From contig PLJH01000138.1 of assembly GCA_003139615.1 (NCBI GenBank), positions 212,578 through 271,609 of the forward strand: a DNA stretch of 59,032 nucleotides, given 5' to 3'. Source of the stretch: Alphaproteobacteria bacterium (GTDB lineage Bacteria; Pseudomonadota; Alphaproteobacteria; Micropepsales; Micropepsaceae). Positions 39,894-51,169 of this stretch are shown here, piece by piece. Position numbers and translations under genes: made by a program. Under the pieces are notes generated by a model, which was given only the letters and a program-made list of their open reading frames with translations, had not been told where the DNA came from and did not search any database. Position 1 is the stretch's first letter; each line of letters begins with the position of its first letter.

Positions 39894-41858
39894 TCAGGTT
39901 CCGATATGGGCCGCCAGGAATTTTTCGACCTCCTTCAGGAGCTGAATGCGGGTTGCGCCGAGTGATAGGTAATGATCGTCGCCGTCGAGCGTGATGAACT
40001 GCACGTTCTTGCCGGCGCTCAGAAGTGCCTTGTTCTCGATCTCACTTTGCTCGATCGGCACCGTAACGTCCTTGTTGCTATGAATCAGCAATATCGGAAT
40101 CTTGACCTGATCGGCATGAGCATAGGGCGACATAGAGTCCAGCTTGCCCGTCTCCGATTTTCCGGCGCCTATACGCGCCTCCCACAATGAGGACGACTCC
40201 GTCTCTTCGCCGCCGCTATTGACGTCGCGATCAATAAACAATTGAAGATCCGCAATGCCGGCATAGCTGATGGCGCAAGCATATTGATTGGGATTGAAGG
40301 TCGCGCCCGCCAATGCAGCGTAACCGCCATAACTCGCACCGACAATGCAGATGCGCTTGGGATCGGCAATTCCGTCAGCGATCAGCTTTTGAACGCCATC
40401 CGTGATATCGTTCTGCACCTTGCCCGCCCACTCTCCGTTTCCGGCGTCCCGGAAGGCGACTCCATAACCGGACGATCCGCGAAAATTGGGCTGCAACACA
40501 GCGTAACCTCGCGAGGCCATGAATTGTGCCCACCAATCGAATTCAAGGCTATCGCGAGCGGCGGGACCACCATGCGGAAAAATAACCGTGGGAAGGTTTT
40601 TTGGCGATTTGCCGGGCGGCAATGTGAGATAGGCATGAATGTCCATCCCATCCCGCGATTTGTACGGATAGGCTTTTTCTTCTCCAAGATCGGACGGCGA
40701 TAAATCGGGATATGATTTCGCGACCACACTGAGTTGGGACGTGGCGGGGCTGAACAGATAAAACGCTTCGGGGTTTTTCGGACCTTCGGCGGCAACGACA
40801 TAATTGGCGCCCGCGGCGTCTCTGGAAACAATCCGGACGGACTGCATCGGCAATGCCCGCTTCAAGCGTTCTTCGATCTGTTCGCGCTTGGGATCGAAAT
40901 ATTTGTATTCCGCCATATCGTCGACGTAACTAACGCCGACGACTCGATTTTCGTGTTCATCGCCCAGTACTTCGTCAATATCATAGGAAGGATTGAGAAA
41001 AAGCGGCGGTCCCAGAGTGCTGTCGCCGAGTTTAAGACCATAAAGGGCATCCATGCCTTCGTTCCCGACCGCACGCACCGCGAGTGCGCTTCCGTCTTCC
41101 GTAAGGTTTTCGACGCCCCATTCGTCGCCTCCGCGTACATCATAAGAGGCCACTTCCTTTTCCCCGATATACAGGTGCTCCTTCAAATCCTGTGTCTGAT
41201 CGATTCGCCCGAGGTAGTGCCCCATTCCATCGGTCAAAAAACGATTTGTATCAGGGCTTCCATGCCGGACCAATTGGCTGACGCCTGACGTAACGCCCAC
41301 GATGAAAAGGTCAAGAAAATATTGATCGTACACCCGCGGGGCGGTGCCATGCAGTTGCGCGTCGGTTTCCTGAGTTTCCATTAAAACAAAATCCGGGTCC
41401 GCGGAAACCACGTCGAGTACGCCGGAAGCCCAGCCATTTTCCTTCGGCGCATCGCCCATGAGTACGGCGGCGTCTCCGCCGTCCATCGCAACGCTGATGG
41501 CGCGGCTGAAAACCTGAATGTCCTTGTAATACGTCAATTTTTTGTTGGCTCGAAATATGCAAATGAGCCGGTTGTTGTTCGCCCAAATGATATCCTCGGC
41601 GATGGCGTCCGGAAATCCGGCGTTCTTCGGCGTCGCATTCGGCGAATCGAGTTCGAACACCGTGGCGATCGGGCGACCGTTCACAGGGTGAATGATTGCG
41701 AGATGCTTTCCATCGGGTGATATTTTCGCGTTGGTAATCGTCGGCAGATTTCCGAACGTTTCAAGCGCTGGAGCGGCAATGGCGTCCATCGCTGCTATCG
41801 GCGAAGCGCAAAGCCCCAAAACGCACACAGCGCCAAACAGGCGCGATCTATTGGACAT
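39894..41858 (-). CDS. S9 family serine peptidase (tandem copy 1)
   Basis: 654 residues with a signal peptide (LFGAVCVLGLCASPIAA) and the same propeller-plus-hydrolase layout as its neighbour. Triad: Ser in GASYGGYAALAG, Asp in LIHSNKDVTVPIEQS (Asp after NK), His in DGDDHYLSLG. Long stretches are the same in both paralogues, such as [21 protein letters not shown] and [12 protein letters not shown], so this is a tandem duplication that has since diverged in the propeller. The GGGGGAG site before the ATG is strong. The gene leads the operon and has a direct repeat upstream. Confidence 0.93.
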   Translation of the reverse strand: MSNRSRLFGAVCVLGLCASPIAAMDAIAAPALETFGNLPTITNAKISPDGKHLAIIHPVNGRPIATVFELDSPNATPKNAGFPDAIAEDIIWANNNRLICIFRANKKLTYYKDIQVFSRAISVAMDGGDAAVLMGDAPKENGWASGVLDVVSADPDFVLMETQETDAQLHGTAPRVYDQYFLDLFIVGVTSGVSQLVRHGSPDTNRFLTDGMGHYLGRIDQTQDLKEHLYIGEKEVASYDVRGGDEWGVENLTEDGSALAVRAVGNEGMDALYGLKLGDSTLGPPLFLNPSYDIDEVLGDEHENRVVGVSYVDDMAEYKYFDPKREQIEERLKRALPMQSVRIVSRDAAGANYVVAAEGPKNPEAFYLFSPATSQLSVVAKSYPDLSPSDLGEEKAYPYKSRDGMDIHAYLTLPPGKSPKNLPTVIFPHGGPAARDSLEFDWWAQFMASRGYAVLQPNFRGSSGYGVAFRDAGNGEWAGKVQNDITDGVQKLIADGIADPKRICIVGASYGGYAALAGATFNPNQYACAISYAGIADLQLFIDRDVNSGGEETESSSLWEARIGAGKSETGKLDSMSPYAHADQVKIPILLIHSNKDVTVPIEQSEIENKALLSAGKNVQFITLDGDDHYLSLGATRIQLLKEVEKFLAAHIGT

Positions 41859-41987: not shown

Positions 41988-42743
41988 TCAACTTCCGAAA
42001 AATTCGACCACCGCCAGCTTGTAAACCTTGTCGCCGACCGTCGTCATATGATCGCGCTTGGCAACTGTCACCGAGCGACCGTCGGCAAAAGCAGCCGCCA
42101 ATGGATCGGGCGGCCCGGTCAGCGCGTCCTTCTCGCCGCAAACCACGAGTACCGGACGCTGCGATTGCGCGAGTTCCGCCGCCGTGAATGCATGGCGCTT
42201 GCCGCGCATGCAGGCTGCGAGCGCCTGGATATCCTTGCCCGATCGTTCGGCGAATTCGCGAAAGCTCTTTTGCACGGGATCCGTGATCTTGTTCTTGTCC
42301 GGCTCCAGCAACGCTTCGGCGATTCCCTCCCGCGATCCGAATGCCGTGCCGAGATAGCTGCCGCCCACGCCGCCGATCACAACTTTCTGCAACATGTCGG
42401 GATGGTCCATCAGCACATGCATGCTGATGAAGCCGCCCATCGAGTAGCCCATCAGGAACGCGTCACCCGCGCCGGCCGCCTCCATCACGGCCACGACATC
42501 CTCCGCCATGAGCGTGTGGTTGTAGAAGGCCGGGTCGTGGGGCTTGTCGCTTTCGCCGTGACCGCGGCAATCGATGGCGACCACGCGATACCCCGCCTCG
42601 GTGAGCGTGTCGTACCAGCCGGGGGCTTTCCAGTTCTGGACCCTGTTCGAGGCGAACCCGTGGACCAGCACAACTGAGGGCCCATCCCCCATGATTTCAT
42701 AGGCAATTCGCACGCCGTCGGCGGCTTTGACGAACTCTGTCAT
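41988..42743 (-). CDS. alpha/beta hydrolase
   Basis: 251 residues, a full alpha/beta-hydrolase fold. The oxyanion segment is VVLVHGFASNRVQNW, the nucleophile Ser is in FLMGYSMGGFISMHV, the acid is in VVCGEKDALTGPP, and the terminal His is in VAKRDHMTTVGDKVY. Esterase, lipase and C-C hydrolase activities all occur with this pattern. GGAGAA lies before the ATG, which is chosen over a much longer open frame whose upstream part is antisense to the M20 gene. The divergent M20 amidohydrolase gene begins 84 bases away. Confidence 0.88.
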   Translation of the reverse strand: MTEFVKAADGVRIAYEIMGDGPSVVLVHGFASNRVQNWKAPGWYDTLTEAGYRVVAIDCRGHGESDKPHDPAFYNHTLMAEDVVAVMEAAGAGDAFLMGYSMGGFISMHVLMDHPDMLQKVVIGGVGGSYLGTAFGSREGIAEALLEPDKNKITDPVQKSFREFAERSGKDIQALAACMRGKRHAFTAAELAQSQRPVLVVCGEKDALTGPPDPLAAAFADGRSVTVAKRDHMTTVGDKVYKLAVVEFFGS

Positions 42744-42827
42744 AGGGACGTTCTCCGCTGGCGGGCGACCTTCGCAAAGGCTGCCCGGACTGTCTATGAT
42801 GACGGCCGTGTCACCGGAATCCCCCCA

Positions 42828-44108
42828 ATGTCGCTGGATGCCTTGAAGAAAGATGTCGCGGCCGCGATCGACGGCATGCGCGCGGAACTGCTGGAACTTT
42901 CGCATGCGATTCACCAGGAGCCGGAACTCGCGCTGCAGGAATTCAAGTCTGCCGCGAAGCTGGAAGACGCGGTCGCACGGCATGACATTCCCGTTCAGCG
43001 CGGCGCGTTCGGGTTGGAGACGGCCTATGCGGCCGAGTTCGGCAAGGCCGGCGGCCCAACCATCGCGATCCTCTCGGAATACGATGCGCTGCCCGGCATC
43101 GGCCATGCCTGCGGCCACAACATCATCGCGACCTCCGGGCTGGGCGCCGCGATGGCGCTGTCGAAACTCGGCGCGCGTTTGCCGGGGCGCGTGCGCTATC
43201 TGGGGACGCCCGCGGAAGAACGTTTCGGCGGCAAGGAAATCATCGCCCGCGAAGGCGCGTTCGACGGCGCGGACGCCGCGATGATGATCCACCCGTCCAA
43301 TGTCGATCTCGTCACCATGCCCTGCATTGCGATTGCGGAAGTGGAGGCGACCTATCACGGCCGCGCAGCGCACGCCTCCGCCATGCCTTATCGCGGGCTC
43401 AACGCGCTCGATGGTGTGGTGACCGCATATCAATCGATCGCGCAATTGCGCCAGCACATCCGCCAGACGGAACGCATGCACGGCATCATCACAGAGGGCG
43501 GGCTCGCGGCCAATATCGTTCCCGAGCGCGCCGCCTGTCGCTTCTATGTGCGGGCAGCGGATGTGCACGATCTCTCGGCGCTCAAGAAACGCGTGCATGC
43601 CTGTTTCGAAGCGGCGGCGCTTTCGACAGGCTGCACTGTCGAGATCCGCTGGGGCGGCACCGACTATCTCGACCTCAAGACCAACTGGCCGATCGCCGAT
43701 GCGTTTGCGCGCAACGGGGCCGCTATCGGCCGCGAATTCGCATCGACGAAAAACATCCCGCCCGGTTTTGCCGGATCGACCGACATGGGCAATGTGAGCC
43801 ATCGCGTGCCGTCGATTCATCCGATGCTGGCGGTGGCGCCTCCCGGCGTGATCATTCACAACGCCGAATTCGCGCGTTGGGCGGCGTCCGACAAGGGCGA
43901 TGCCGCCGTGATCGACGGCGCAAAGACTCTCGCGATGACGGCGCTCGACCTGATGAGCGACCATTCGTTGCTGGCCACCGCGAAATCCGATTTCGATGCG
44001 ACGGCAGATGTTTCTGCCGCGGCACTCGCGCGGCTCACCGAAAAGGTCCCCAACAGCGAACCGCACGCGCATCTCCATGGCGCCGGCGGCTGCGGATGCG
44101 CGTCATGA
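42828..44108 (+). CDS. M20-family amidohydrolase (AbgB-like)
   Basis: 426 residues. M20D metal-site pieces: HAIHQEPELALQEFKSA, YDALPGIGHACGHNIIATSG (Cys and His), GTPAEERFGGKEIIA (Glu), MMIHPSNVDL, and STDMGNVSHRVPSIHP near the C-terminus. The layout is that of p-aminobenzoyl-glutamate hydrolase B and aminoacylase-like enzymes, which split N-acyl amino acids or aryl amides. The C-terminus HLHGAGGCGCAS is His/Cys-rich and unusual. Its stop overlaps the ATG of the DUF423 gene (ATGA). Exact substrate unknown. Confidence 0.9.
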   Translation: MSLDALKKDVAAAIDGMRAELLELSHAIHQEPELALQEFKSAAKLEDAVARHDIPVQRGAFGLETAYAAEFGKAGGPTIAILSEYDALPGIGHACGHNIIATSGLGAAMALSKLGARLPGRVRYLGTPAEERFGGKEIIAREGAFDGADAAMMIHPSNVDLVTMPCIAIAEVEATYHGRAAHASAMPYRGLNALDGVVTAYQSIAQLRQHIRQTERMHGIITEGGLAANIVPERAACRFYVRAADVHDLSALKKRVHACFEAAALSTGCTVEIRWGGTDYLDLKTNWPIADAFARNGAAIGREFASTKNIPPGFAGSTDMGNVSHRVPSIHPMLAVAPPGVIIHNAEFARWAASDKGDAAVIDGAKTLAMTALDLMSDHSLLATAKSDFDATADVSAAALARLTEKVPNSEPHAHLHGAGGCGCAS

Positions 44109-44476
44109 ATCTATGGCTCCTGATTGCCGCAATCAACGGCTTCCTGGCCGTCGCAGCCGGCGCGTTCGGTGCGCACGGTCTACAGGGCAGGCTCGACCCG
44201 CATCACCTTGAGATTTTCGAAACAGGTGCGCGCTATCAGATGTATCACGCGCTGGCGATGGGGCTTGCCGCGCTCGCCATGCGCGGGACGGCGAGCGGCG
44301 CGGCGCAGACGTCGGCCGCTTTCTTTCTGGTCGGCATCGTCCTGTTCTCGGGATCGCTTTATGTCCTTGCGCTCACGGGCATTCGCGCCGTCGGCATCGT
44401 GACGCCCTTCGGCGGTCTCGCCTTTCTGATCGGCTGGGGCGCGCTCGCCTGGGCCGCGGCAACGGTTTCGGCATGA
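44105..44476 (+). CDS. DUF423 family membrane protein
   Basis: 123 residues, four membrane helices. Family signature: AAINGFLAVAAGAFGAHGLQ at the N-terminus with the AFGAHGL motif, then FETGARYQMYHALAMGLAAL and VLFSGSLYVLALTG, ending GGLAFLIGWGALAWAA. DUF423 (YwdK-like) proteins are widespread in bacteria with no confirmed activity. Both ends overlap neighbours by four bases, so it is translated within one operon between the amidohydrolase and the FAD monooxygenase. Confidence 0.93.
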   Translation: MNLWLLIAAINGFLAVAAGAFGAHGLQGRLDPHHLEIFETGARYQMYHALAMGLAALAMRGTASGAAQTSAAFFLVGIVLFSGSLYVLALTGIRAVGIVTPFGGLAFLIGWGALAWAAATVSA

Positions 44477-45960
44477 GTACAAAACCTGAAACCGTTCTCG
44501 TCGCGGGCGCCGGAATTGCCGGCCTTGGTGTGGCGCTCGCACTTGGCGACGGAAATCGTGAGGTCACAATCCTCGACCGCGATCCGCCGCCGCCGGATGC
44601 TTCGCCTGAAGAAGCGTTCAACACCTGGGAACGGCGCGGCGCGACGCAGCTTCGTCACAGCCACGTATTTCTCGGCCGTCTCACCACACTCATCCGCGAC
44701 CGCTATCCCAGACTGCTTGACGAATTGCTGCAGGCAGGTGCGCGCATTTTCACGTTCGAAGACGCGCTGCCACCGACATTGAAAAATATCTACGCGCCCG
44801 CGGCCGGCGACGACGAGATGACTATTCTGTTCAGCCGGCGCACGACACTGGAACTGGTGATGCGCCGGTATGCAGCGCAATTGCCGAATGTCCGCTTCGT
44901 TTCGGATGCCGGTGTGCGGGGGCTGCTCGCGCATCGCGACGGGCAATCGCTCATCGTCGATGGCCTCGCTGTCACACGCGGCGACACGGTCGAAGAAATG
45001 CGCGCTGACGTGACCGTCGATGCGAGCGGCCGCAATACGGCGTTTCCGGACTGGCTGCGCGCCGAAGGGCTCCAAGTCACCGAAGAGGAAAGCCCCGCAG
45101 GCATTCTCTATTTCACGCGCCATTATCGCTTGCGCGACGGCATGGACGAGCCGGATCGCGACGGCACGCCGGGCGCCGGCGATCTGGGCTACATCAAATA
45201 TGGCGTATTCGCCGCCGACAACCGGCATTTCTCCATCACGCTCGCCACGCCCGAGATCGAAACCGAATTGCGCATGGCAATCGTAAGGCCGGAGATTTTC
45301 GATCGCCTTTGCGCGGAGATTCCCGGTTGTGCGCGATGGACCGATCCGGCCCGCGCCTTGCCTGCGAGCCCCGTCTATTCCATGGGCAATCTCAAAAGCG
45401 TCTGGCGGAATTATTTCAGGCACGGCGAACCGCAGGCGCTTGGCTTCTTCGCGGTCGGCGACTCCGCCGTGCGCACGAATCCGCTTTACGGACGCGGCTG
45501 CTCGGCAGGCGTTGTTCACGCGCATATCCTGCGCACGGCTCTCGATGCGACGGCCGATCCGCGTGAACGCGCCAGGATCGTGGAGCGTGACACCCGCGCG
45601 GCCTTGCGTCCCTATTACGACACGATGGTGAAACAGGATTTGCAATCCATCCGCCGGGCAGGGCACGAGCGCGATCCCGCCTACAAGCCGCGCCTCAAGG
45701 GCCGCATCGCCAAGAGCTTTATCGAAGACGCGCTGATGCCGGCCACGCGGGCAGACCTCGCCGTGCTGCGCGCGTCGTCCCGCGCGTTTCATATGTTTTC
45801 CGATCCGGTGGCGTGGCTGAAAGACCCGGTTATGCTCGCGCGCATCCTGCGTGTCTGGGCGGTGCCAAAATCGCGAAAAACGCGCGCCGGGTATTATCCG
45901 CCCGAATTCGGGCCGCCGCGGGCCGAGATGTTCGCGCGTGTCGGACTTGCAAATTCATAA
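44473..45960 (+). CDS. FAD-dependent monooxygenase/epoxidase-like oxidoreductase
   Basis: 495 residues. N-terminal FAD-binding motif ETVLVAGAGIAGLGVALALG with the acidic LDRDPP after it, and the second FAD block FAVGDSAVRTNPLYGRGCSA, where the Asp contacts ribitol. This places it near the squalene/zeaxanthin epoxidase and aromatic hydroxylase group of FAD monooxygenases, although geranylgeranyl-reductase-like enzymes have a similar fold. The start overlaps the DUF423 stop; an epoxide hydrolase follows 21 bases after its stop, so epoxidation of an isoprenoid or alkene is a reasonable guess but not shown. Confidence 0.82.
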   Translation: MSTKPETVLVAGAGIAGLGVALALGDGNREVTILDRDPPPPDASPEEAFNTWERRGATQLRHSHVFLGRLTTLIRDRYPRLLDELLQAGARIFTFEDALPPTLKNIYAPAAGDDEMTILFSRRTTLELVMRRYAAQLPNVRFVSDAGVRGLLAHRDGQSLIVDGLAVTRGDTVEEMRADVTVDASGRNTAFPDWLRAEGLQVTEEESPAGILYFTRHYRLRDGMDEPDRDGTPGAGDLGYIKYGVFAADNRHFSITLATPEIETELRMAIVRPEIFDRLCAEIPGCARWTDPARALPASPVYSMGNLKSVWRNYFRHGEPQALGFFAVGDSAVRTNPLYGRGCSAGVVHAHILRTALDATADPRERARIVERDTRAALRPYYDTMVKQDLQSIRRAGHERDPAYKPRLKGRIAKSFIEDALMPATRADLAVLRASSRAFHMFSDPVAWLKDPVMLARILRVWAVPKSRKTRAGYYPPEFGPPRAEMFARVGLANS

Positions 45961-45981
45961 GAATAATTTCCGGAGGAAACG

Positions 45982-46950
45982 ATGGCGGACATGCCCGAAC
46001 CGACGATGATCAAGACCAACGGCATCGACATGGCCGTATATGAGGCCGGACCGAAGGATGGCTTGCCGGTTGTCATGTGTCATGGCTTTCCGGAGCTCGC
46101 CTATTCCTGGCGCCATCAGATTCCGGCGCTCGCCGCGGCCGGCTTTCGCGCCATTGCGCCGGATCAGCGCGGCTACGGCCGCACGTCGCGTCCCGAGAAT
46201 GTGCGCGATTACGATATGGCGCATCTGACCGGCGATCTCGCCGGAATGCTCGACGCGTTGGGGCTCAAGAAGGCGATCTTCTGCGGCCACGATTGGGGCG
46301 GCCTCATCGTCTGGCAGATGCCGCTCTTTCATCCGGATCGCGTTGCCGGCGTCATCGGCGTCAACACGCCATTTCTCGCGCGCCCGCCCATCGATCCGAT
46401 CATGGGAATGCGGGCGATGTTCGGCGAGAACATGTACATCGTCTATTTCCAGAAACCCGGCGAGGCGGATGTCGCGCTCGCGAAGGATGTCGGAAAATCC
46501 TTCCGCTTCTTCATGCGTAAGAACGGCGTCAGCGCACTCGATTACGCGAAGCTGCCCAAGGAGGCGCGCAATCTGGAACTGGTCAATGCCATCCAATCCG
46601 ATGAATCGCTATGGCCGGGCGAAGCGCTGCTCACGCCCGACGAGCTGAAAGTGTTCGTCGACACGTTCACGCGTACGGGCTTTACCGGCGGCATCAACTG
46701 GTATCGTAACATGACGCGCAACTGGGAAGTGTCCGGCACCATGGAGCAGAAGGTCCATGTGCCCGGATTGATGATCATGGCGGAAGACGATGTCGTGCTC
46801 TCGCCCGCCATGGCCGACGGCATGGAGCGTTTCGTGCCCGATCTCGAACGGGTTCTGATCAGGCATTGCGGCCACTGGACCCAGCAGGAACATCCTGAAG
46901 AGACCAGCGCGGCCATGATCGACTGGCTGACGCGCCGATTCCGCCCATAG
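45982..46950 (+). CDS. epoxide hydrolase (alpha/beta hydrolase)
   Basis: 322 residues. Epoxide-hydrolase landmarks: oxyanion motif VVMCHGFPELAYSWRHQ, RGYGRTSRP, the Asp nucleophile in AIFCGHDWGGLIVWQM, and the catalytic His in IRHCGHWTQQEHPEE; an Asp/Glu acid and a cap domain with Tyr lie between. It hydrolyses epoxides to diols by an ester intermediate. The very strong GGAGGAAAC before the ATG suggests good expression. It lies directly downstream of the FAD monooxygenase and upstream of the ABA4-like gene, making the three look like one pathway. Confidence 0.92.
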   Translation: MADMPEPTMIKTNGIDMAVYEAGPKDGLPVVMCHGFPELAYSWRHQIPALAAAGFRAIAPDQRGYGRTSRPENVRDYDMAHLTGDLAGMLDALGLKKAIFCGHDWGGLIVWQMPLFHPDRVAGVIGVNTPFLARPPIDPIMGMRAMFGENMYIVYFQKPGEADVALAKDVGKSFRFFMRKNGVSALDYAKLPKEARNLELVNAIQSDESLWPGEALLTPDELKVFVDTFTRTGFTGGINWYRNMTRNWEVSGTMEQKVHVPGLMIMAEDDVVLSPAMADGMERFVPDLERVLIRHCGHWTQQEHPEETSAAMIDWLTRRFRP

Positions 46951-46959
46951 GAGCGGCAC

Positions 46960-47412
46960 ATGACTCCCGAAACGATCTTCGCCATCGCCGACAACGGCAT
47001 TCTCGTTTTCTGGCTGCTGCTGATCGTGGCGCCGGCCTGGCGCGGCACGCAAATTCTTGTGCACTCCGTGGCGATTCCGGTTTTGCTGGGCCTGACTTAC
47101 ATCTGGCTCTTCGCGACCGCCGCCCGCATCGGCCTCCCTGCCGGCGCCGGCTTCTCGTCCCTGCACGGCGTGGCCGCTTTTTTTTCTTCGCCTTACGCGC
47201 TGACGGCCGGCTGGGTTCACTATCTCGTGTTCGACCTCTTTGTCGGGGCGTGGGAGACGCGCGATGCGAAGCGTCGTGGTATTCCGCACCTCCTGGTCAT
47301 TCCGTGCCTCGTCGTGACGCTGGTGGTCGGGCCCGTGGGGCTGCTGCTCTATATCGTTTTGAGGGCAATCCTCGGCAAAGGCGGCTTTTTCCTGACCGAA
47401 ACGCCGGCTTGA
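46960..47412 (+). CDS. ABA4-like (DUF4281) membrane protein
   Basis: 150 residues with four hydrophobic segments. The family signature is GWVHYLVFDLFVGAWETRDA followed by KRRGIPHLLVIPCLVVTLVV and GPVGLLLYIVLRAI. The plant member ABA4 is needed to convert violaxanthin to neoxanthin; bacterial relatives are mostly uncharacterised. Located 9 bases after the epoxide hydrolase gene. The neighbourhood suggests isoprenoid or carotenoid epoxide chemistry, but no carotenoid gene is in the window. Confidence 0.85.
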   Translation: MTPETIFAIADNGILVFWLLLIVAPAWRGTQILVHSVAIPVLLGLTYIWLFATAARIGLPAGAGFSSLHGVAAFFSSPYALTAGWVHYLVFDLFVGAWETRDAKRRGIPHLLVIPCLVVTLVVGPVGLLLYIVLRAILGKGGFFLTETPA

Positions 47413-47476
47413 TCCGGATTTAACGCATCATACGTATCTTCAATCGCACCCCGGAACCTGCAATTCTACCCGAATC

Positions 47477-48394
47477 ATGGCCGACGACAGCGACAACATC
47501 GACACCTTCTCCTACGCCGCACCGGACGACCCGCGGCTCAAGCGTTTCGTGATCCGGCTGATCGAGCGCATGTCGGGCCAGCCTTATCTCAAATATCTCT
47601 ACGACGAACACCACACGCACCCCGTTCCGGGCGAGAGCTTCTGGGATGCGGCCATCCGAAAGCTGGAACTCAAGCTGGTCTACAATGAGGAGCAACTCGC
47701 AGCGTGGCCGAAGACAGGTCCGCTCATGGTCGTGTGCAACCATCCGTTCGGCGTGCTCGACGGCGTCATCATCTGCCATCTCGTCTCGAAGGTGCGGAAC
47801 GATTTCCGCGTCTTGACGAATTCCGTGCTTTATCGCGCCGAAGAAATCCGTCCCTATCTGCTGCCGATCGACTTCGCGGAAACCGAAGACGCACTCAAGA
47901 CCAACATCAAGTCGCGCGCCGAGGCGAAGACGCATCTGATCGGCGGCGGATGCCTCGTGGTTTTCCCGGCAGGAGGCGTTTCGACGACGCCGAAGGTCTG
48001 GCACAAGCGTGCCGTCGATACCGAATGGAAGACTTTCACAGCACGGCTCATTACCCAGGCGAAGGCGCCTGTCGCGCCCGTTTTCTTCGCCGGACAGAAC
48101 AGCCGCCTGTTCCAGATCGCAAGCCATGTGAGCATGACCTTACGGCTCTCGCTGATCTTCAAGGAAGTGCACGACATGATCGGTGGCGAGGTCCAAATGC
48201 GCGTGGGCGCGGTGGTGCCTTATGACAAGCTTCCGTCGATGGACGACAGACAGGCTTTCATGGCGCAATTGCGCGACATGACGTATGCGCTGGGGCAAGG
48301 CGTTCCCAACCCGCCGAAAACGCGCATCAAACGTCCGCGCAGCGCACCGAAAACTCCGGATGTCTCCCATCCGCAGCGCAGCCGCACCGCATGA
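47477..48394 (+). CDS. lysophospholipid acyltransferase-like protein (PlsC family)
   Basis: 305 residues. Acyltransferase motif I is VVCNHPFGVLDGVIICHL (His-x4-Asp pattern), and motif III-like VVFPAGGVSTTPK follows, as in 1-acylglycerol-3-phosphate acyltransferases and hemolysin-like acyltransferases. It should transfer an acyl group from acyl-CoA or acyl-ACP to a lysolipid or amino-lipid. The C-terminal ~35 residues are Arg/Pro/Lys-rich and not part of the fold. No Shine-Dalgarno is obvious before the ATG. Its stop overlaps the lutA start. Confidence 0.88.
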   Translation: MADDSDNIDTFSYAAPDDPRLKRFVIRLIERMSGQPYLKYLYDEHHTHPVPGESFWDAAIRKLELKLVYNEEQLAAWPKTGPLMVVCNHPFGVLDGVIICHLVSKVRNDFRVLTNSVLYRAEEIRPYLLPIDFAETEDALKTNIKSRAEAKTHLIGGGCLVVFPAGGVSTTPKVWHKRAVDTEWKTFTARLITQAKAPVAPVFFAGQNSRLFQIASHVSMTLRLSLIFKEVHDMIGGEVQMRVGAVVPYDKLPSMDDRQAFMAQLRDMTYALGQGVPNPPKTRIKRPRSAPKTPDVSHPQRSRTA

Positions 48395-49152
48395 AGCCCG
48401 GTGCCCGCGTCGGCCTATTCGTCACCTGCCTTGTCGATCTCATCCGTCCGCAGATCGGCTTCGCGTCCGTGAAGCTGCTGGAAGATGCAGGGTGCAAAGT
48501 ATCGGTTCCCGAGGTGCAAACCTGTTGCGGACAGCCGGCCTGGAATGCCGGCGCAGACAAAGACGCCGCCGCGATTGCGCGACAGGTGGTCGATGCGTTC
48601 GTGCCGTTCGATTATGTCGTGGCGCCCTCCGGCTCCTGCGCGGGCATGCTGAAGAAATATCCCGATGTGCTGGCGCAGGATGCGGCATATCTGCCGCGAG
48701 CGCATGCGCTCGCCGCGAAGACACACGAACTCACATCGTTTCTTGTGAAGATCGCGGGCATGACGGGCGTTAAAGCTGCCTGTGCGACCCGCGCCTGCTA
48801 TCACGATTCCTGCTCCAGTCTGCGCGAAATGAATGTGAAAGCCGAGCCGCGCCGATTGCTTGCGACGGTCGAAGGCTTCGAACTGGTTGAATTGACCGAC
48901 GGCGCCGTGTGCTGCGGCTTTGGCGGGCTCTTCTCCGTCAAATATCCCGAAATCTCCGAGCGCATGGCGGACGACAAGATTGCCGACGCGCAGAAGACGG
49001 GAGCCGAAACCCTGGTGGGTGGCGATCTGGGTTGTCTGCTGCATCTCGCAGGCCGGATGGAGCGCCAGGGCAAGACATTGCGCGTGCGCCATGTGGCCGA
49101 AGTGCTGGCAGGCGTGGGCAAGGAGCCGGCGCTGGGCGAACCCGAAACATGA
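48391..49152 (+). CDS. lutA: LutA-like L-lactate utilisation iron-sulfur protein
   Basis: 253 residues. Two CCG (cysteine-rich) domains: VGLFVTCLVDLIRPQIG, VQTCCGQPAWNAGA, SGSCAGML in the first half; CATRACYHDSCSSLREMN and GAVCCGFGGLFSVKYPEISE in the second. These domains bind a Fe-S cluster and handle electrons from lactate. First of lutABC, each joined by an ATGA overlap. Homologues (YkgE) oxidise L-lactate to pyruvate with LutB and LutC. It follows the acyltransferase gene with no gap, so both are probably on one message. Confidence 0.92.
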   Translation: MKPGARVGLFVTCLVDLIRPQIGFASVKLLEDAGCKVSVPEVQTCCGQPAWNAGADKDAAAIARQVVDAFVPFDYVVAPSGSCAGMLKKYPDVLAQDAAYLPRAHALAAKTHELTSFLVKIAGMTGVKAACATRACYHDSCSSLREMNVKAEPRRLLATVEGFELVELTDGAVCCGFGGLFSVKYPEISERMADDKIADAQKTGAETLVGGDLGCLLHLAGRMERQGKTLRVRHVAEVLAGVGKEPALGEPET

Positions 49153-50561
49153 GCCAGGATCCACGCAATTTCACAGCCGCGTCGCATGAGGCGCTGGCCG
49201 ATCCCAATCTCAAGGTCGCGCTGGGCCGGCTCAAAACGCATTTCCAACTGGGCCGCACATATGCGGCCGCAAATTTCGGCGATTTCGAAGCGTTGCGCGA
49301 ACAGGGTCGCGCAATTCGCGACTATTCGCTGTCGCGGCTCGACATTTTGCTGGAGACTTTCGATGCCCGCGTGAACGCGCGTGGCGGGCATGTCCACTGG
49401 GCGCGCGATGCGAAGGAAGCGCGCGAAATCATTCTCGCCATCCTGCGCGAGACGGGCGCAAAGACGGTCACCAAGGGCAAATCCATGGTGAGCGAGGAGA
49501 TCGAGCTCAACCCGTTCCTCGAAGCGAACGGGATTACGCCGGTCGAGACCGATCTCGGCGAATACATCATCCAGCTGCGCCACGAGCCGCCCAGCCACAT
49601 CATCGCGCCGGCGTTCCATCTGAGCAAAGAGCAAGTGGCCGAGACGTTCCACGAAGCCCACACCACGCTCGACCCGAACCGCCCGCTGACCGAGCGCAAT
49701 GCGCTGGTCGCCGAAGCACGGCGCATGCTGCGCACGTCTTTCGAAGCGGCCGACGCAGGCATCACGGGCGCCAATTTCCTCACGGCCGAGGAAGGGGCAG
49801 CCATGCTCGTGACCAACGAGGGCAATGGCGATCTGACGCGGCTTCTGCCGCGCACCCATATCGTGCTGACCGGAATCGAAAAGATCGTCCCCGATCTCAA
49901 CGATGCGTCCGTGCTGCTGCGTCTCCTCACGCGCTCGGCGACGGGTCAGGCGATCTCGAGCTATGTCAGCGTGATGGCGGGACCGCGGGGCCCAGGCGAA
50001 ACCGACGGGCCGGAAAACTTCCATGTCGTGCTGGTCGACAATGGCCGCACGCGGCTGATCGGCACCGAAGCGGAAGACGTGCTGCGTTGTATCCGCTGTA
50101 GCGCCTGCCTCAATCACTGCCCGATCTACAGCGCGGTGGGAGGTCATGCCTATGGCGCGACCTATCCCGGGCCTATCGGTGCCGCGCTCAATCCGAATCT
50201 GCTGGGGCTCGCCGCCGCGCATCATCATCCCAATGCATCGACCTTCTGCGGGCGCTGCGCGGAAGTATGCCCGGTGAAAATCCCCCTGCCCCGGATCATG
50301 CGCCATTGGCGCGCGCGCGAATATGCGAGCGGGCTTGCGCCCAAAGCGATGGTGGCCGGGCTTTCGCTCTGGGCTTTCGCAGCGAAACGCCCGCGCCTTT
50401 ATCGGTTTGGAGCGGGTTTCCTGTCGCGCTTCCTGAAACGTATCGCGGGAAAGCGCGGCGCGGTCCGCGCGATGTCGTTGATGCGCGGCTGGTTCGCCGT
50501 GCGCGATTTTCCCGCGCCCAAGGGCAAGACGTTTCACGAGCTGTGGCGGGCGCGCAAATGA
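49149..50561 (+). CDS. lutB: LutB-like iron-sulfur lactate utilisation protein
   Basis: 470 residues. The N-terminal part is the LUD domain (GAKTVTKGKSMVSEEIELN, TGANFLTAEEGAAMLVTNEG, ATGQAISSYVSVMAGPRGPG). Two [4Fe-4S] ferredoxin motifs follow: CIRCSACLNHCPIYSAVGGH and CGRCAEVCPVKIPLPRIM. The last ~90 residues, lacking metal motifs, match the usual LutB C-terminus. Subunit of lactate oxidation feeding the quinone pool. The ATG shares ATGA with the lutA stop; the frame is open far upstream, but that part is a shifted reading of lutA. Confidence 0.94.
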   Translation: MSQDPRNFTAASHEALADPNLKVALGRLKTHFQLGRTYAAANFGDFEALREQGRAIRDYSLSRLDILLETFDARVNARGGHVHWARDAKEAREIILAILRETGAKTVTKGKSMVSEEIELNPFLEANGITPVETDLGEYIIQLRHEPPSHIIAPAFHLSKEQVAETFHEAHTTLDPNRPLTERNALVAEARRMLRTSFEAADAGITGANFLTAEEGAAMLVTNEGNGDLTRLLPRTHIVLTGIEKIVPDLNDASVLLRLLTRSATGQAISSYVSVMAGPRGPGETDGPENFHVVLVDNGRTRLIGTEAEDVLRCIRCSACLNHCPIYSAVGGHAYGATYPGPIGAALNPNLLGLAAAHHHPNASTFCGRCAEVCPVKIPLPRIMRHWRAREYASGLAPKAMVAGLSLWAFAAKRPRLYRFGAGFLSRFLKRIAGKRGAVRAMSLMRGWFAVRDFPAPKGKTFHELWRARK

Positions 50562-51169
50562 GCGCGCGCGACGAAATCCTGTCCGCCATCCGCCTGCGCC
50601 GCGTGCGCAACGAGCCGCGGCCATCACCTTATCATCCCGCAGCGATCGACGGCGACCTCGTCGCGCAATTCGCAAAGCGCGCCACGTCCCAAGCCGCGGA
50701 GGTGCGGCATCTGTCGAGCATGGACGACGTTCCGGCGGCAGTCGCCGATATTCTGCGCGGTCGCAACATGCAGGCGGTCATTCACCTGCCGCCGGGATCA
50801 GCGGACGAGCAATTGCCCTGGCAATCTGCGCCCGGTCTGACCCGGGGGAGTTCACCGCCCGGACCCGACGACGCGGCGCTCGCGCTCGCGCCCTACGCCA
50901 TCGCCGAAACCGGCACGCTTGCTTACACGTCTGCACCCGACACACCTGCGTCCTGGCATTTCCGCGCCGGTCTCGAAATCGCCGTGCTGCGCTCGGACTC
51001 GGTCCTCCCGCATCTGGAAGAGGTGCTCGCGAAGGTGAAGGCGCGCGGCGAATTCCCCCGCACACTCAATCTCGTGACCGGCCCTTCGCGCACGGGCGAC
51101 ATCGAGCAGACCCTGGAACTCGGCGCCCACGGCCCGAAGGCGTTGGCGATTTTGATTATCGATGGTTGA
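50558..51169 (+). CDS. lutC: LutC-like LUD-domain lactate utilisation protein
   Basis: 203 residues. The LUD-domain core: YAIAETGTLAYTSAPDTPAS in the middle and NLVTGPSRTGDIEQTLELGA with HGPKALAILIIDG at the end, the family's SRTADIE-like motif. LutC is needed with LutA and LutB for growth on L-lactate. The ATG overlaps the lutB stop. Ends seven bases before the convergent marR gene. No LctP/LldP permease or GntR regulator was seen next to the cluster, so uptake and control lie elsewhere. Confidence 0.93.
   Translation: MSARDEILSAIRLRRVRNEPRPSPYHPAAIDGDLVAQFAKRATSQAAEVRHLSSMDDVPAAVADILRGRNMQAVIHLPPGSADEQLPWQSAPGLTRGSSPPGPDDAALALAPYAIAETGTLAYTSAPDTPASWHFRAGLEIAVLRSDSVLPHLEEVLAKVKARGEFPRTLNLVTGPSRTGDIEQTLELGAHGPKALAILIIDG

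Follow-up and report, generated by a model that had tools for sequence, protein, structure and literature searches.

Three neighbouring genes in a bacterial genome can look like a pathway without being one; does the run of a flavin monooxygenase, an epoxide hydrolase and an ABA4-like protein described here make and open an epoxide, and of which compound? The genes lie in a stretch of 59,032 nucleotides (the window) of contig PLJH01000138.1, positions 212,578 to 271,609, from an alphaproteobacterium of the Micropepsaceae (assembly GCA_003139615.1; 4.65 Mb, 142 contigs, 96.67% complete; G000 below, where G, L and f numbers denote genomes, loci and families). All are on the + strand: the FAD (flavin adenine dinucleotide) monooxygenase, 495 AA, at 44473..45960, the epoxide hydrolase (EH), 322 AA, at 45982..46950 and the ABA4-like protein, 150 AA, at 46960..47412. 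They adjoin, as described in the initial annotation, which tentatively regarded the set as an epoxide-forming and -opening route for an isoprenoid, by analogy to plants; 21 bases separate the first gene from the second and 9 the second from the third. We favour, at about even confidence, a reading in which the first two genes encode an epoxidase/EH pair for a lipophilic alkene and form a fragment, now detached, of a module that accompanies methylmannose-polysaccharide (MMP) loci.

The FAD protein was compared with family models and solved structures. Pfam gave a single sub-threshold match (DAO, 24 bits, cut-off 27.9), and NCBIfam models for ubiquinone hydroxylases, geranylgeranyl reductases and others scored 18-26 bits, far below their cut-offs. 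Among solved structures, phmmer at a threshold of 0.001 found only MonCI (1.9e-17) and Lsd18/LasC (2.5e-12). With a profile built from 19 relatives, MonCI was matched with 1.1e-31 and Lsd18/LasC with 3.3e-25 at best, followed by squalene monooxygenase with 1.5e-6 over about 40 residues. Solved geranylgeranyl reductases and aromatic hydroxylases match weakly and locally, and the protein does not group with either family. The earlier assignment to an epoxidase-like FAD group is thus borne out by the profile search, with MonCI and Lsd18 as the closest sequence kin by a wide margin. Motifs of class A flavin monooxygenases, common to these enzymes and the window protein, were found as GAGIAG at residue 12, VDASGRNT at 182, GD at 329-330 and NPLYGRG at 336, which we take to be the GxGxxG, DG-type and GD/NP..G motifs. 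Residues G12, G14, G17, D183, G186, G329, D330, N336, P337 and more are invariant in the 19 aligned rows, which omit L022, L026 and L079. In L022 (G028), frame changes interrupt each of the genes for the FAD protein, DUF423 and the M20 hydrolase, a pattern more suggestive of an assembly error than of decay.

For polyether epoxidases, the signatures RKGxPQxRHxHxLWSxGA and AFNPxxGHGMSxxA are given in PMC10560226, whereas the window protein has RRGATQLRHSHVFLGRLT and RTNPLYGRGCSAGV. Retained are Q.RHxH, with the flavin-stacking histidine, and NPxYGxGxS; the remainder is changed, including the letters LWSxGA, AF and HGM. According to the same paper, the flavin-stacking residue of MonCI is His57; its counterpart in the alignment is H64, which does not vary among the 19 rows. 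Identity to MonCI and Lsd18 is about 20-24% in Foldseek alignments, and, in contrast to these enzymes, no polyketide genes were seen adjoining the FAD gene, its partner being an EH of the alpha/beta-hydrolase fold. Judged from its sequence, the FAD protein is therefore related to the polyether polyene epoxidases but falls outside that group. An AlphaFold model from four rows is weak (mean predicted local distance difference test, pLDDT, 56.0); its top Foldseek hits, Lsd18, MonCI and then squalene epoxidase, may be read as agreeing with the sequence result and as nothing further. In plasmid records, distant kin only were found (95 records, all below 60% identity, 68 from Streptomyces).

The second protein matches solved epoxide hydrolases along almost its entire length (E 1.5e-78 for mycobacterial EphA, the nearest chain, and 9.1e-76 for mammalian soluble epoxide hydrolase, sEH). 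The HGFP and HDWGG motifs reported before are intact, at residues 34 and 103. By comparison with sEH, we take D104 to be the nucleophile, D270 and H298 the acid/histidine pair, and Y152 and Y241 the lid tyrosines; all five are invariant in 18 aligned rows (L019, L020, L022, L026 and L079 omitted). Unlike EphA and sEH, it is linked to a gene resembling flavin epoxidases and, in related bacteria, to genes of the MMP type.

The third protein, hydrophobic and small, is indeed a relative of ABA4 (PF14108, 133.8 bits, Pfam cut-off 27; hydrophobic stretches). It shares this family with the plant protein acting in neoxanthin formation, but the host differs from plants in having no carotenoid desaturase over the cut-off. 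Synechococcus elongatus, not known as a neoxanthin producer, also carries a PF14108 protein. PMC10840463 cites a diatom homologue that, tested in E. coli, did not act as a neoxanthin synthase. ABA4-like proteins were also seen in very small alphaproteobacterial genomes (G134, G242, G331 and G409; family f98, 1.2-1.3 Mb).

Conservation of the arrangement was examined in 385 genomes of Alphaproteobacteria. These are phylogenetically non-independent, and Fisher p-values describe this sample alone; with at most four or five FAD and EH candidates scored per genome, the counts are lower bounds. The FAD protein was matched in at least 22 genomes at 1e-10. The 14 with E < 1e-100 were used for counting and the eight weak ones (best 6.3e-22) were dropped. 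EH was matched in at least 46 genomes at 1e-60 and PF14108 in 39. FAD and EH genes lie within 2 kb of each other in 12 of the 14 genomes, from seven families; the exceptions are G162, where EH is elsewhere, and G265, where none was found at 1e-60. Within the class sample, neighbourhood of the two genes exceeds what chance would produce. In the families of G088, G218 and G390, the EH is divergent (35-38% identity, one tree clade) and lies on the opposite side of the FAD gene. Near such pairs, a TetR-type regulator was observed in L083 (by clustering), L084 and L085, as in a catabolic locus, with an amidohydrolase in L084 and a TonB receptor in L085.

The link of ABA4 to FAD is weaker than that of EH: an ABA4 gene lies within 3 kb of FAD in 4/14 genomes, and the full trio was found in the host, G044, G178 and G276, besides the metagenome-assembled genome RI_48. 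Of the three-gene neighbourhood, the FAD-EH part stands and the complete set is confined to few genomes. In a set of 61 genomes, made up of the host, 36 congeners and 24 other members of the class, eight carry FAD and five carry ABA4. When 38 genomes of the genus were searched for the acyltransferase found downstream in the window, 22 loci were obtained: eight with FAD, EH and acyltransferase, eight with EH but no FAD in the same slot, and six without this EH or cut. Only the window has ABA4 in this slot; the ABA4 gene of G021 is on a different contig. With EH frequently found apart from FAD, and ABA4 rarely part of the run, the trio is not one obligate pathway.

In other families, four-gene clusters recur downstream of this block (L021:13282-17010; L024, L028, L075, L076, L078-L082, L087-L090 and L166-L185). 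Three of their products match the solved structures 7qsg (2.7e-102; inositol phosphate glycosyltransferase in the structure table), 7qsj, which is MmpH (6.3e-85), and 6g7d (2.5e-60; methyltransferase domain protein); the methyltransferase in the position of pMeT3 matches only general methyltransferases. Presumably, 7qsg is the structure of ManT and 6g7d that of MeT1; this assignment agrees with the enzymes of PMC9883506. The same paper gives Asp47 and Glu262 as putative catalytic acid and base of MmpH; the MMP genes it describes are from actinobacteria, mycobacteria among them. Both residues are retained in L082, where Asp50 is replaced by Asn, assuming a one-residue chain offset. MmpH was found in 33 of the 385 genomes, from twelve families. 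All four genes are ordered ManT-methyltransferase-MmpH-(MeT1 reversed) in 31 of them; in the two exceptions, contig ends interrupt the cluster. This order equals that of the M. hassiacum locus tags; unlike the mycobacterial cluster, the relatives' clusters stand in Alphaproteobacteria and have companion genes. No MmpH match was found in the five genomes of the host genus in the sample, G000 included; for G000, the search did not extend to manT and meT1.

Upstream of ManT and on the same strand, these loci carry subsets of DUF423, FAD, EH and ABA4, in this order, followed by SnoaL_3 and a small hydrophobic protein in varying order. Counted by hand, the companions in the 33 MmpH loci are EH in 17, SnoaL in 14, DUF423 in 12 (some kilobases off in three), the small hydrophobic protein in nine, and FAD and ABA4 in eight each; nine loci have no companion, four of those being cut close by contig ends. 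The counts for EH, FAD and ABA4 refer to 6 kb around MmpH, and EH is always on the ManT strand (families f4, f9, f18, f121, f126 and f167). EH and MmpH occur together in 24 genomes, against 3.9 expected, the genomes being non-independent. A literature search, with most subscription papers outside its scope, returned no report of MMP in Alphaproteobacteria, which is weak evidence of novelty, and no paper on methylmannose together with an epoxide hydrolase, or on an epoxide hydrolase together with an ABA4-like protein. Near the block, an Rv3169-family protein (407 bits) and an APH-type kinase were observed at L082:12515-14715 and, by clustering, in L021, L076, L078 and L079; the families concerned are f9 and, by clustering, f121.

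In the FAD tree, the six sequences used from the host genus form one clade (100/97), sister to strain SO-S41 and the MMP-linked RI_48 copy (98/98). The ABA4-like protein of the window is nearest to the RI_48 copy, with weak support (86/74). The EH tree places the EHs of the genus and the MMP-linked EHs in one large clade; here, L027 (strain SO-S41) was put in the group 'own_fad', its membership of the host genus being unproven, and the 20 rows named 'other' are a selection from the listed EH places. On the simplest reading, an ancestor had the module next to MMP genes, and the module was later retained on its own; transfer is a possible alternative.

In the favoured reading, the module would consist of DUF423, FAD, EH and ABA4, then SnoaL and the small hydrophobic protein, directly upstream of an MMP-type cluster in other Alphaproteobacteria, of which the genus of the window would have retained a part, beside an acyltransferase and lutABC, without the MMP hydrolase gene. 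The FAD enzyme would be a class A flavin epoxidase, dependent on NAD(P)H and O2, which adds an oxygen atom across a C=C double bond in a lipophilic compound. Following the chemistry of the two families, FAD would be reduced by NAD(P)H, a hydroperoxyflavin would form and the alkene would be epoxidised; the EH, of the soluble type, would then open the epoxide to a vicinal diol via an ester of its Asp. The ABA4-like protein may be an optional membrane accessory outside this core. Since many relatives carry EH alone, it can evidently also work without this FAD enzyme, on an epoxide that may come from elsewhere. A proposed function of mycobacterial MMP is the sequestration of fatty-acyl CoA (PMC9883506), and the run includes a lipid-type acyltransferase; on these grounds the likeliest substrate, at low certainty, would be a lipid such as an unsaturated fatty acyl compound.

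Several observations weigh against this reading. The activities of all three proteins are predictions from sequence, the polyether signatures are retained only in part, and the AlphaFold models are poor, that of the ABA4-like protein (two rows) having a mean pLDDT of 56.6, similar to the FAD model. EH stands without FAD in eight genus genomes and in 10 of the 17 EH-MmpH loci, so coupling is not obligate. EHs without a seen MMP link lie within the same large EH clade, and the EH-MMP link may reflect a gene order passed on by descent and not a common function. In Nonomuraea (L206), the single actinobacterial MMP-type region seen, the MMP gene order is the same, and no match to EH, FAD, ABA4, SnoaL, DUF423 or a small membrane protein was found in 20.9 kb; the companions are therefore not part of MMP biosynthesis in general.

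Some of these points would suit independent neighbours, that is, an EH detoxifying lipid or xenobiotic epoxides, a FAD enzyme of other chemistry (hydroxylation, halogenation) and an unrelated ABA4-like protein in an inherited order. The incomplete signatures and the EH-only slots in the genus fit here, as do ABA4 without EH or FAD in two MMP-type loci (G159, G262) and FAD without EH in G265. However, FAD stands beside an EH in 12/14 genomes, and plain inheritance of order does not explain the three families with a different EH lineage in the opposite order. We regard independence as a serious contender that is nevertheless probably incorrect. A role of the EH-like enzyme as an MMP-pathway hydrolase, acting on MMP itself or its acyl groups, would account for EH being the commonest of the six companions counted and standing directly upstream of ManT in family f18. 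The presumed nucleophile and both lid tyrosines are retained as in epoxide hydrolases, though, 16 of the 33 MMP-type loci have no EH (four of these cut close by contig ends), and the host genus has EH and no MmpH in the five genomes searched, so that we consider this role very improbable.

The isoprenoid route, in which a carotenoid, hopanoid or squalene is epoxidised and opened and ABA4 acts on the epoxide, can draw on the PF14108 membership, and the host has a squalene-hopene cyclase (PF13243) and three matches to the squalene/phytoene synthase family (PF00494). Farnesyl compounds are also turned into epoxides by MonCI and Lsd18 in vitro (PMC10560226, PMC12144862), so another linear isoprenoid is a possible substrate. 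However, the phytoene desaturase CrtI (TIGR02734) was not found over the cut-off in the host (best 48.1 bits, cut-off 238.1), which leaves the ABA4-like protein without a carotenoid pathway in the same organism. CrtI was over the cut-off in 5 of 28 genomes searched, among them 3 of 20 FAD genomes (G033, G157, G260) and thus missing from 17. The cyclase does not follow FAD either: it is present in 35 of 38 genus genomes, with or without FAD, which only eight of the 38 carry, and is missing from 10 of 12 FAD genomes outside the genus (present in two). PF00494, with paralogues unsorted, matched 76 of 80 genomes and does not discriminate. Furthermore, 10/14 genomes have no ABA4 near FAD. Given the distribution of CrtI and the cyclase across FAD genomes, carotenoids and hopanoids do not fit, and these two with squalene were rejected as the common substrate in tests with the three family models; the isoprenoid route is improbable. 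An epoxide-forming and -opening route as such remains a fair interpretation, given the epoxidase kinship and the neighbouring EH, whereas the plant analogy and these three substrates found no support. SnoaL was considered as an epoxide opener of the polyether type with NTF2 fold; this is unsupported, its sole solved matches (E up to 10) being two proteins with other or no annotation.

The trio is embedded in a longer run of nine + strand genes (42828-51169) with 4-base overlaps at five of the eight junctions. It starts with an M20-family amidohydrolase (42828..44108; TIGR01891 over cut-off, Peptidase_M20), also found upstream in genus relatives, followed by a small hydrophobic DUF423 protein (44105..44476; PF04241, 95.9 bits, and hydropathy), whose gene shares four bases with both the M20 and the FAD gene and, in many relatives, precedes FAD or EH. 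Downstream is an acyltransferase (Acyltransf_2, 47477..48394) with a sub-cut-off relation to the lyso-lipid acyltransferases OlsF and GlsA; in genus relatives it comes after EH or ABA4. Proteins resembling LutA (48391..49152; CCG domains), LutB (49149..50561; LUD domain, 4Fe-4S, LutB_C) and LutC (50558..51169; LUD domain) were assigned by domain matches and complete the run, each gene overlapping the preceding one by four bases. These lactate-utilisation genes are odd company for an epoxide pair. Just upstream of the run, on the - strand, are an S9 peptidase (39894-41858) and an alpha/beta hydrolase (41988-42746).

Taken by itself, the trio is a modest find: a relative of polyether epoxidases, paired with an EH. 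The larger point is that recurring companion genes, above all this EH, adjoin complete MMP-type clusters in Alphaproteobacteria. A bolder proposal, which we would sooner expect to fail than to hold, is that Alphaproteobacteria of the twelve families in the sample make MMP of the mycobacterial kind, that several loci have their own lipid-epoxidising and -opening companions (FAD, EH, ABA4-like, SnoaL), the polysaccharide carrying or presenting epoxy- or dihydroxy-lipids, and that the module of the window persists without the polysaccharide. If it is true that these organisms make MMP, its role with lipids could be studied in Gram-negative bacteria, and the companion enzymes would be clues to the lipid of MMP.

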